Source: Agelas oroides (lineage: Eukaryota; Porifera; Demospongiae; Agelasida; Agelasidae). From it: a stretch of 64,000 bases of DNA. The stretch's first letter is position 1. Every line of letters begins with the position of its first letter. The notes beneath the pieces were generated by a model. The model saw only the letters and a list, made by a program, of their open reading frames with translations. It did not search any database and had not been told where the DNA came from. The DNA lies in the NCBI GenBank assembly GCA_949130485.1, contig OX422189.1, positions 2,799,720-2,863,719 on the forward strand. The letters run 5' to 3'. The translations under genes were made by a program, and so were the position numbers. This document shows positions 6,513-17,320 of the stretch, in pieces.

Positions 6513-8806
6513 TCACCGAAGTTGGTAAGGATTATGGCAGTTTCTGCATAGACAGCGGTTACAAGGTTTCCCCTGAGAAAAGCAAGGGCACTTTCCACGA
6601 GCACAAATCTTTTGGAGGACTTGGGGATGATTAGTTCCACACCGACACCGAGGCGTGCCACTTGGGGTCTTTCTCCTCTGTTTCGCTGGAGATGGAGTTA
6701 CCTCACCCCCAGATTGAACCGGAGTTGAACCAGCAGAATAATTTTTTGGGGTTTCAGCAGAAGACTGCTCCTCCTTTCCCAAATGTTGCTCCTCCATGAC
6801 TACATTTGCTGCAGCACCACCTGGAGAAGTTGTACTACACTGCTGTCTTTTTTCAACCATCGGAATCTTACGCCTTTTGGTATCATACAGTCTTGGGCTC
6901 AGTGGACTTCGTGATCTTTTGAAGCCAGCCCTTAACCAAGGTGGTTTGGGTGATGACGGACTTTGTTCCAGCAGTGGTGGTGCATCGTTGTTCATTTCTA
7001 TACCCGAGGAGGTTACTATAACATGATCCTTGTCTAGACAGTTGGACTTCACTTCCCAATCTTCAGGTGGGAGGAGAATGTCACTAAACTTGGCCTTTGT
7101 TATTTCATTGTCAGGATAGCTAACATCAATTGCATTCACCTCCTTTTTGTGCTTCTTCAGTGTGCCATGCTGAACTCTCACCTTCCTGTCAGGAGTACTT
7201 TGTGCTGAGCTTAGCTGTCTGGATGGATCAGGGTCTGCTTGTTGCTTGAAGGGCTTTTTGCTCTTTTTGGACTTACCAGCTGACTTTGCAGCTGATGAAG
7301 TCTCACTCTGTTCATCTGCCTTGTTTGCTGACAAAGTGTCATTCTCAGGTGATCCACTGATGCTGTGAAGTTTGGTAGACTTTGACGATTTGACAGACAC
7401 TGGGGCAGCCGCAATCTTCTGGGAATGAGAGGAGTGGTCCTTCTTTGGGGTACTGACTCTCACATTCAGGTATTTGGCAGGAGGCTTGATCATTAACACT
7501 GCACGAGAAACTTTTTCACCATTTTGAACCTCCCTCAAAATCTGCCCAATCGGGTCTAACTCTGTTATCACCGGCGCAGACTGCTTTTCCTTCCCCTCAC
7601 CACCAACCAAAGAACCACAGCTTCCAGATTCTGTACCAGTCTGTTTAGTACCCACTGCATTACTGATGGTAGGGTCTGACTCAGTACCTGCTTTGGCAGC
7701 AGTGTCCATTTTGGCTGCATTACAGTCTACTTGAGCCATCTTAACTACAACATCAGGTACGACACTTGATGCAGCAACAGCATCATTCTTTGAAGGTTCA
7801 GGCTGGCTTTGCTTCATGTGAGCAGCAAGAACATGGCACATGTGTTTGTAGCACTGCACCAAAAGTCTCAGTTGGTTTTCAATTACTAGCCCAGTCCTCT
7901 CCCTACATTGACGACACTGAATTTTCAGCAGCGGTGGGCGAAACTGACAGTTGTAGCAGTAGCAGTGGCCACAGGATAGGGAGACCATGGCATTCTCCAG
8001 CAGACCTGCACAGAGGTACATCAACATCAGAGAGCTTGTACACAGATGTAAATAGTTGGAAAGAATATACCGGCCTCTAGCCTCATTCCCAGGCCTTCCC
8101 ATCATCCAGTTTTTGATTGTTTATAAGAACTTGACAGTGACAAAGGCCTGGGCATGAGATTCGAGTACCCCATCACAACCTGGTATTTGTCTTTAGAGTC
8201 ATTATTGTACAGTACCACATAGTATACACACGTACACAGGTCTAGAACAGGTTGACCATTATCATCAACCAAACACTACCAATATCATAGCTAATGAAAA
8301 AGCTTTGAGCAGCGCATTACATAAGTCATCACATATCAGTAAAAATGACACCAGGCCCATTATCATACAGCAAACATCAAGAAAAAGTGGAATGAAAATA
8401 GTTGATAATGTGAGTTGTACCGTACTCCAAGGTGACATCAAAGTTTGTTTTGGTGACTAGTAGGCTTAATTAATGAGCACTCCAAGAGACATGAAGGTAC
8501 CTTTGTTCTCAATTTCTGAACGGTATTGTTACCTTGCCTCACTCCCAGGCTTTCCCTGCCTACAGTTTTTGATCATTTGTCCAGAAAACTGGAAGTGGGA
8601 AACACCAGGAGACAAGGCTAGTTCCTACCTGCACAAGCACAGCAGGTTAGCAGCTGCCTCAGGTAAGGAAGCAGCTGTGAGAGGTCCGTAAGGTCCCCCT
8701 CCCTGCAGGGAGGCATGTCCCAGCATTGCTGCTGAAGAACACTCCAGACCTCAGAGTAGACCTCAGTCGCCCTGGCGGCTATGCTTGCAGACTTGGGGAG
8801 TGGCAT
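6513..8806 (-). CDS. MSL2: MSL2 E3 ubiquitin ligase (RING and CXC domains)
   Basis: MSL2 is the RING subunit of the male-specific-lethal/MOF histone H4K16 acetyltransferase complex; in animals it ubiquitinates histone H2B and binds DNA through its CXC domain. Two coding exons, 8806-8629 and 8005-6513, join in phase across CAG|GTAGGA...GTGCAG|GTCTG and give 556 aa. The N-terminus DLSQLLPYLRQLLTCCACAG|LL matches human EINRLLPYFRQSLSCCVCGHLL, and the splice falls between the first and second zinc pairs of the RING (CCAC...CGHCYCYNC...CRQC, residues 55-95). Residues 100-505 are a Ser/Lys-rich low-complexity linker. The C-terminal CXC domain (from CRCGTNHP to CLCRNCHNPY) ends ten residues before the stop, so the human C-terminal tail is missing. 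The start is the first ATG upstream of the conserved segment. It is divergent with PCCB. Confidence 0.93.
8006..8628. other. MSL2 intron 1
   Basis: This is the only coding intron of MSL2. It holds a decayed copy of the TAGCCTCGTTCCCAGGC inverted-repeat family at about 8,076-8,160 and another single end near 8,538. No further exon was seen. Confidence 0.6.
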
Positions 8807-15300: not shown

Positions 15301-17320
15301 TGGAATTGCAACAAAGAGATTTGACTGCATCAGTAGATGAGATGTTTGGTATTGGGTTCTACTTTGCCGCAAATTTTTGTGAATATTGCCAAAATAGACC
15401 AAGTGGAGGTGGCTGCAGTACATCCACGAGATTCTGTGATCCTCTGTACTCACAGATGTTCCTCTACCTGTGCAGGTACTCATGAAGAATACAATGGGAT
15501 TATCCGTAATGGAGCCAAGTTACTCTTTGCTTATGCTGAGGCCACTGTTCCAAAAATCACCGTTATCACCAGAAAAGTAAGTTTGCATGTGAGATCATAG
15601 CAATATATTTAGCTGCATTGCAAATAGCCTTGCACCCAGGTATAAGACTGCATTGCATACAACCACCGAAAATGGTAGTGGGCAGTAGTACAGAGGTTCT
15701 GAATACTGGTATCTGCGTGAAAAGATCAAGACAAGATTGGTGTATCCACTTTCCAAGAGAATAATCAACTTTGGTGGCCGCACCTTACTTCTTTGGAGTT
15801 AGATGCTACACAGTGCCCTGCTGCTGGTGTTTCTTGACATGCATCCACAAAACATGACATCTTGTGTGAACCAGCTGTTGAGTAGAGAGAAAAGGTGAAA
15901 AAGGTGCCCACCAATGACACACAGGGGATACACTTACTTCACTTATGTCAACAACCGAGATTGGTCTACCGCTGCTCATTTGTGAGAGTGCAATGTACTT
16001 AAATTCGCCTAAAAGTAGCAAATAATCCTCACATGTGAAACATTATAGCATTTCGGGGGGAGGGGCCAGTGGTCTGTTAAAATTCTCTGAATGAAATTTT
16101 GTCTCTCTGCTAGGCATATGGTGGTGCATATGATGTGATGAGCTCCAAACACCTTCGTGGTGACATCAACTATGCCTGGCCCACAGCAGAGATTGCTGTG
16201 ATGGGTGCGAAGGTCAGTCACTTCGAGAGGGATATATATAAGCTTGCCTACTGTGTGCTTATGGTGATGATGTAGGCCATACTATATTATAGTAGAAAAA
16301 TTGCACTAAAATTTTGCCAGATTTGTTTTAGCCACTTAATTGTTGCCAAACTCAGGCCACCAACTTATGGCATTCAGAACTAACTGGCTTATTTTTTGGA
16401 GGATGTTTTACTGGGAGGCCTTAGCTATATACTTGATGGTCTTTTCCAAATGTACATGTAACAGTAAAATTTCGCCAGTATTGATCTCCAGTTACAATTC
16501 TGCCTAACCATGAGATGGAAGACATCAGATGCATGTAAATTTGGAGTATATAGCCTCGTCCGAAAAATCCTTAAATCTGATGTCTTCCATCTCTAGCCTC
16601 GTTCCCAGGCCCCATCCGAAAGATCGACCCTTTCCCGATTTTTGCTTGTAAAATTTCAACACTTGGTGAAATTGGAAAAATTTTCTCTCTGGCAAAATTT
16701 CTCTCTGGCGAATTTCCTACCATGCAATTAAGTAGTGTCTTGAAGAAAAGTGAAAATACGGTCAGCTTTGTACTTGTGTGGTAAAATGTGTGTGCTTGCA
16801 CTTTTTAGGGTGCTGTGGCAATTTTACATCGTGCAAAGAGCCCAGAAGGTATGTCTGACATTTAGATCACCATCTGTGACCATGGTATTAAACTCTGAAC
16901 AGTTAACACAAGAGTATCACAGAAGTGTTTGGTGTAACTCTGACAGCTGTGCATGCATGTGTTGTCCACTTCCACTCAGAACTAGTCACTTTGGAGAAAG
17001 AGTATGAAAACACTCTGTGTACCCCATTCCAAGCAGCTGCTAGGGGTAAGGTTGTGTAGTTATGTGCAGTATCAATGGATTTGAACTATATGTATAATGT
17101 AGTACTGTAATGCCAAGAATGATATATTGAAAGAAAGTGTGTTTACAATCAAAAGAATTCTGAAAAAGGTGATGGTATTCACATGCTTGTGTTCCCAGGG
17201 TTCATTGATGATATTATCCAGCCCCGGGAAACCAGACTGCGGATCTGTGAAGATCTTGAATTGCTAGCCACAAAAAAGCAGGACATGCCATGGAAGAAAC
17301 ACGGCAATATTCCACTGTAG
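9322..17320 (+). CDS. PCCB: Propionyl-CoA carboxylase beta chain, mitochondrial
   Basis: PCCB is the carboxyltransferase subunit of propionyl-CoA carboxylase, which makes methylmalonyl-CoA in the mitochondrial matrix from odd-chain fatty acids and Ile/Val/Met/Thr. Eighteen exons were joined with consistent phases: 9322-9501, 10433-10552, 10874-10942, 11340-11396, 11622-11735, 12126-12186, 12569-12618, 12714-12755, 12857-12923, 13156-13201, 13786-13860, 13997-14202, 14722-14829, 15476-15576, 16114-16212, 16809-16848, 16980-17045 and 17199-17320. The product is 540 aa, against 539 in human. The N-terminus [17 protein letters not shown] is an Arg-rich mitochondrial targeting peptide. Conserved blocks include [108 protein letters not shown] and the C-terminus KKHGNIPL. 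It appears intact. Confidence 0.98.
11064..11171. mobile_element. Near-perfect 108-bp palindrome in PCCB intron 3
   Basis: The left arm (ctagtctcggtcccagaccc...) is repeated as its reverse complement with only a short non-pairing centre. Its TAGTCTCGGTCCCAGACC ends resemble the TAGCCTCGTTCCCAGGC family. The flanks ataacatgc and gctacatgc share their last six bases, a decayed 9-bp duplication. Confidence 0.8.
14298..14573. mobile_element. Inverted-repeat MITE in PCCB intron 12
   Basis: The ends CAGTAAGAGTGTGCAACTCC and its reverse complement face inward, and an inner pair (gatgacataggcaacagcac and its complement) continues the pairing, giving a 276-bp foldback element. No clear target duplication was seen. 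Confidence 0.8.
14865..15112. mobile_element. CAAGAGCGCATAAGAACGGG inverted-repeat element, copy 1
   Basis: A 248-bp element whose ends are inverted repeats, with inner motifs (actaaaaatag / ctatttttagtac) that also pair. It lies in PCCB intron 13 and is flanked by cctcgc on both sides. Two related copies lie at 28,850-29,097 and 52,842-53,091. Confidence 0.88.
16502..16605. repeat. Inverted repeat in PCCB intron 15
   Basis: gatggaagacatcagatgca at the left is matched by tctgatgtcttccatctc at the right, with a fragment of the TAGCCTCG family between the arms and another starting directly after. Confidence 0.7.

Follow-up and report, generated by a model that had tools for sequence, protein, structure and literature searches.

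A probable anciently inherited neighbour pair, MSL2 and PCCB, head to head in the sponge Agelas oroides and adjacent in human

Unrelated genes that are adjacent both in sponges and in vertebrates have been described as ancient metazoan microsyntenic pairs (Irimia et al. 2012, via Gaiti et al. 2017, PMC5429095). These are a known class of feature, and the cases treated in that source are attributed to cis-regulatory elements that the two genes share or that are embedded in one of them. Compact head-to-head pairs were reported from Amphimedon: start sites <1 kb apart were counted for 11,379 head-to-head genes, almost one third of genes appear bidirectionally promoted, and intergenic distances have a median of 0.59 kb (Fernandez-Valverde and Degnan 2016, PMC4773876). 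On the scale of whole chromosomes, sponges and eumetazoans have common ancestral linkage groups, and gene order was largely lost between two sea anemones ~174 million years apart (PMC10719294). The locus described here lies in a window of 64,000 nucleotides (G000:C7:2799720-2863719, C7 being the contig) from the Agelas oroides assembly of 259,295,671 bases and 141 contigs. MSL2 (minus strand) and PCCB (plus strand) stand head to head, with their start codons at 8806 and 9322 and 515 bp between them (8807-9321). The divergent spacing given by a first-pass annotation of this DNA was exact on both gene models, and the interval which it singled out ends at the stop codons of MSL2 (6513) and PCCB (17320).

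The locus resembles the microsyntenic pairs in that two unrelated genes are adjacent in a sponge and in vertebrates; for MSL2-PCCB the resemblance is one of gene order. As in the Amphimedon pairs, the genes are divergent and within 1 kb of each other, measured here between start codons, and by analogy with that genome a gap of 515 bp would be ordinary. With the ancestral linkage groups it shares the placement of human-block genes on one chromosome-sized contig; that work concerns chromosome-scale linkage, and MSL2 and PCCB are additionally adjacent. Few pairs of unrelated genes have stayed together all the way from the earliest animal branches to human, and those that have offer natural tests of the forces acting on genome order. 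A literature search on both gene names returned no comparative study of the pair by title (the older names msl-2 and RNF184 lay outside the search).

A paper on chromosomal abnormalities of renal cancer prints human chromosome 3 coordinates that place PPP2R3A at 135965673-136147891, MSL2 at 136148922-136197241, PCCB at 136250306-136337896 and STAG1 at 136336233-136752403 (PMC7187337). The order PPP2R3A-MSL2-PCCB-STAG1 is contained within 0.79 Mb, and MSL2 and PCCB are neighbours among the genes listed. In dog, the two genes (MSL2 23:32631936-32662611, PCCB 23:32689873-32782007) flank one association marker (PMC10605342). The MSL2-PCCB gap calculated from these coordinates was 53,064 bp for human and 27,261 bp for dog. 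We take human MSL2 to be on the minus strand and PCCB on the plus strand, and the overlap of the end of human PCCB with STAG1 is consistent with this. The human adjacency stated by the first-pass annotation was therefore borne out by printed coordinates. What sponge and human have in common is the neighbourhood, and not the short gap. Bidirectional promoters are by convention those with transcription start sites ≤1 kb apart (PMC4773876). Because the mammalian gaps are tens of kb, far over this convention, conservation of one core promoter for both genes as far as mammals is unsupported, and the short divergent gap across species that would mark a conserved bidirectional promoter is absent from human and dog. 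On the present gene models, the orthologues are adjacent in a sponge and in a bilaterian, as expected of an ancient microsyntenic pair. The earlier suggestion of a shared promoter or a regulatory constraint is thus divided: the promoter does not stand against gaps of this length, whereas a broader constraint via distal elements stays compatible with them.

If the arrangement was inherited, the human flanking genes are expected on the same sponge chromosome as the pair, which is at 2.806-2.817 Mb of C7. STAG had one match in the genome, at C7:74102-74272 (74 kb; 2.7 Mb from MSL2-PCCB), and the joined exons matched cohesin SA-1 at E = 2.8e-31, with SA-2 nearly as good. The PPP2R3-type domain was found as two exons at one genomic place, C7:527950-528757 (528 kb; 2.3 Mb from MSL2-PCCB), matching PP2A subunit B'' alpha (PPP2R3A) at E = 5.9e-21. 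All 4 human-block families are thus represented on C7, a contig that makes up 4.06% of the assembly, and the chance of both STAG and PPP2R3 falling there is ~0.0016 where placement is independent and by length. The linkage of PPP2R3 and STAG homologues to the contig of MSL2-PCCB is a new observation, and together with the displacement of the flanks from the still adjacent pair it agrees with the published linkage-group work (PMC10719294).

We consider it probable that the MSL2-PCCB neighbourhood was inherited from early in animal history, as a remnant of an ancestral chromosome in which the flanks of the pair have scattered, with no conserved shared core promoter. One ancestral animal chromosome would have held MSL2, PCCB, PPP2R3 and STAG, as the human and Agelas genomes together suggest; in the Agelas lineage the flanking genes would have dispersed along that same chromosome, with MSL2 and PCCB remaining adjacent and divergent. 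The adjacency itself is probably of ancestral origin, and may have been retained either through constraint or through slow breakage. In Agelas the two promoters would be within ~0.5 kb and very likely in one common open-chromatin region, where a separate core promoter for each gene is the most likely arrangement, that of PCCB presumably near 9260-9320. The pair discriminates between hypotheses of gene order, as a shared promoter fails in mammals and the flanks are locally scrambled on the same chromosome.

Both gene models were predicted from genomic sequence. The spliced MSL2 model has 556 aa in two coding exons, with one coding intron of 623 bp. Exon 1 (8629..8806, minus) holds the start codon (8806-8804), with an in-frame TGA at the second codon upstream of the ATG, and exon 2 (6513..8005, minus) holds the remainder of the RING through the CXC domain and the stop. 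The RING region matched the MSL2 homolog chain 4b7y in PDB (E = 3.5e-13), presumably the human MSL2 chain, over residues 37-119 and across the exon junction. Pfam MSL2-CXC scored 33.3 bits, exceeding its cut-off of 26.7 (genome-wide profile match at C7:2806235-2806372), and zf-RING_10, the MSL2 RING model, scored 29.5 bits (E = 8e-7), 1.5 bits short of its cut-off of 31. With an MSL2-type RING and an MSL2-type CXC, the minus-strand gene is the predicted MSL2 orthologue. Elsewhere in the genome MSL2-CXC exceeded the cut-off once, at 27.4 bits on contig C3 (L030, G000:C3:9414619-9414777, plus). A second MSL2 gene at that site was rejected, as the open reading frame (ORF) has other contents and no RING was seen by eye in the 680 of its 775 residues that were examined. 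This C3 ORF is long, carries a CXC-like motif and is perhaps from a mobile element; one region of it looks like that of an OTU-type protease. No MSL2 relatives were confirmed in viral contigs.

PCCB (9322..17320, plus) was recognized by gene model, PDB and Pfam matches. Its 18 coding exons are at 9322-9501, 10433-10552, 10874-10942, 11340-11396, 11622-11735, 12126-12186, 12569-12618, 12714-12755 and 12857-12923 (exons 1-9), and at 13156-13201, 13786-13860, 13997-14202, 14722-14829, 15476-15576, 16114-16212, 16809-16848, 16980-17045 and 17199-17320 (exons 10-18). The spliced model has 540 aa, all 17 introns are GT..AG, and the arginine-rich N-terminus resembles, by eye, a mitochondrial presequence. 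Residues 33-540 matched mitochondrial PCCB chain 7ybu, which we take to be the human chain, with 835 bits (E = 1.7e-250), whereas methylcrotonoyl-CoA carboxylase beta chain 8j4z scored far below this, at 230 bits; Pfam Carboxyl_trans matched at 4e-195. As a full-length carboxyltransferase closer to PCCB than to MCCC2, the plus-strand gene is the predicted PCCB orthologue. An intronless carboxyltransferase ORF of 596 aa on contig C14 (L001, G000:C14:7926930-7928381, minus) was considered as a second PCCB and rejected at 34% identity to PCCB; it is possibly MCCC2. Further carboxyltransferase matches, in several pieces, are on contig C12; the comparison with PCCB covered the C14 ORF. Intron 3 of PCCB contains a long, near-perfect inverted repeat (11065-11170), like a small non-autonomous transposon, and similar inverted repeats seem, by eye, to be present near 14280-14570 and 16510-16590.

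Several points weigh against ancient inheritance with separate core promoters. The comparison base is two mammals and one non-mammal genome, and the human strand orientation of the pair is an assumption. DBR1 is on contig C6 and FAIM on contig C22; as we take both to be human 3q22 genes, C7 does not correspond to the whole of the wider 3q22 region of human. A candidate MSL2 5' untranslated region (5'UTR) intron at 8822..9210 (minus) would run from a donor-like site (9210) to an acceptor-like one (8822), and further splice-like sequences of the gap have equally good scores. If real, this intron would place the MSL2 start site near that of PCCB; both start sites could then almost coincide, with a common core region in Agelas. 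Motifs in the gap were tested by regular-expression counts of 21 motif classes against the window's own rate. Apart from the hits given below, the motif classes were absent from 8807-9321, among them GC-box, CCAAT, ETS, NRF1, YY1, CACGTG, CRE and canonical TATA, with at most 0.85 of each expected. At such low expected counts for a 515-bp stretch, their absence is a weak result and says little about promoters.

Distal cis-regulatory constraint, whereby one gene is controlled by an enhancer that lies in an intron or the flank of its neighbour and breaks are selected against despite distant promoters, is a possible though unlikely explanation of the retained order. The mechanism is a known one, as 43 of 60 Amphimedon microsyntenic units had putative enhancer-like signatures in adults (PMC5429095). 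It is compatible with a gap of 53 kb in human and of 0.5 kb in Agelas, and it would suit a pair that is intact where the flanks have moved by megabases. However, no enhancer was located. The MSL2 model has a single coding intron, and PCCB, as an enzyme of the housekeeping type, differs from the typical developmental pairs.

That one bidirectional promoter was kept by selection from sponge to human, as the first-pass annotation had proposed, is improbable, being contradicted for both mammals by gap length. In its favor are the 515-bp divergent gap itself and the commonness of head-to-head pairs <1 kb apart in Amphimedon (PMC4773876). The gap also contains a palindrome at 9120..9143 (9-bp arms, 6-bp spacer). 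By eye, each of its strands shows TATA-like runs, and its predicted fold is better than that of 195 of 200 shuffles; as palindromes of this class number 8 in 64 kb, it is weak as a signal. The Amphimedon pairs are enriched in Sp1/GC-box, G-box-type E-box and Nrf-1 motifs (PMC4773876), whereas the Agelas gap is without these, a weak contrast for one gap; the missing GC-box, ETS, NRF1 and CACGTG likewise count against a shared promoter as a weak test. Initiator-like words numbered 9 (8.9 expected), and one DRE-like core, ATCGAT, was present (0.09 expected), as was one TGACCTTTG with its TGACCT half-site by the same motif count. GC was elevated over the first exons of both genes. The CpG ratio rose at the PCCB side only, and its maximum of 0.68 is matched by 15% of 200-bp windows, so that it is not special. 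The gap is its own sole match in the assembly, and the surrounding stretch 8600-9520 likewise returned only itself; derivation of the gap from a dispersed repeat is not supported by this one match, in a search that passes over very common words. No RNA gene was matched in the gap by Rfam at the gathering threshold.

Two DR1-like nuclear-receptor sites on the minus strand were found near the PCCB start codon, and both are leads only. The first (GGTCCAAAGGTCA, 9274..9286) agrees with the consensus at 12 of 13 positions, and the second (GGGTCAAAGGTCG, 9294..9306) ends 15 bases before the start codon. Sites of this type are bound by HNF4 and RXR partners. None of 400 shuffles of the gap reached two sites (mean 0.02), with the motif picked post hoc. 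In the whole window there are 6 sites of this type, where 6 shuffles gave 0 to 5, and another closely spaced pair is at 978 and 998. The twin arrangement was rejected as a repeated genomic unit, since the exact pair occurs once, and with ≤3 mismatches it occurs at 11 places while the reversed control pattern occurs at 13, so that the arrangement is not in excess across the genome. Of the two nuclear receptors of Amphimedon, both bind fatty acids and one is orthologous to HNF4 (PMC2950128), which makes a metabolic input to PCCB a fair lead but nothing beyond that.

Coincidence, with the two genes having become neighbours independently in the Agelas lineage and in vertebrates, is very improbable. 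The finding was chosen post hoc from a comparison of two mammals with one other genome, which leaves room for it; set against this are a chance of divergent adjacency that we estimate at ~5e-4, if on one chromosome of ~1000 genes, and the presence of STAG and PPP2R3 homologues on C7.

A last explanation holds that the pair was kept because its products meet in one process, with propionyl-CoA disposal controlled jointly with the writer of the H4K16 mark. MOF is the acetyltransferase of the MSL complex. According to a review, MOF (KAT8) is also an efficient H4K16 propionyltransferase, whose depletion abolishes almost all propionylation of H4K16, and histone propionylation rises when propionyl-CoA carboxylase is deficient (PMC13073539). 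The first-pass annotation's statement that the two genes have no obvious shared function was therefore too strong, and it did not contain this possible functional tie. In such a scheme, propionyl-CoA carboxylase would set the level of propionyl-CoA, MSL2 would direct the MSL complex, and MOF would propionylate as well as acetylate H4K16, and joint control might come, in this lineage, from an HNF4-type receptor that binds fatty acids and acts at the twin DR1-like sites (9274-9306). Knock-down of mof in the fly left H2BK17 propionylation unchanged (PMC10192394), which counts against such a functional link, and the main text of PMC10700137 mentions neither PCCB nor propionyl. The chemistry that links propionyl-CoA and MOF is real, but its bearing on gene order is speculation, and we give this explanation a faint chance at best.

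Beyond the pair, two 5S ribosomal RNA genes (18256-18374 and 18536-18658, minus; 111 and 93 bits) lie just downstream of PCCB. To the right of PCCB, the scan covered two of the three minus-strand frames of 17330-32330. Two adjoining single-exon Galactosyl_T ORFs, an apparent tandem duplicate, are at 19393-20331 and 20873-21988 (minus), where human has STAG1. Downstream of MSL2, at 4551-4782 (minus), lies a well-formed 77-codon internal exon with no Pfam match and PDB matches at chance level only; for a gene left of MSL2, the minus-strand frames likewise gave no Pfam match, and PDB matches no better than chance. A tandem array at 62568-63999, open in several frames and with repeats such as GSVVHVYVSAAL and RTHAPRSLNAAL, is unlikely to be a gene. 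Protein kinase exons occupy 50175-61575 (minus), with Pfam Pkinase in two ORFs, one over and one under the cut-off; this kinase resembles the STK24/25 group, and long CA and pyrimidine-rich repeats lie between its exons.

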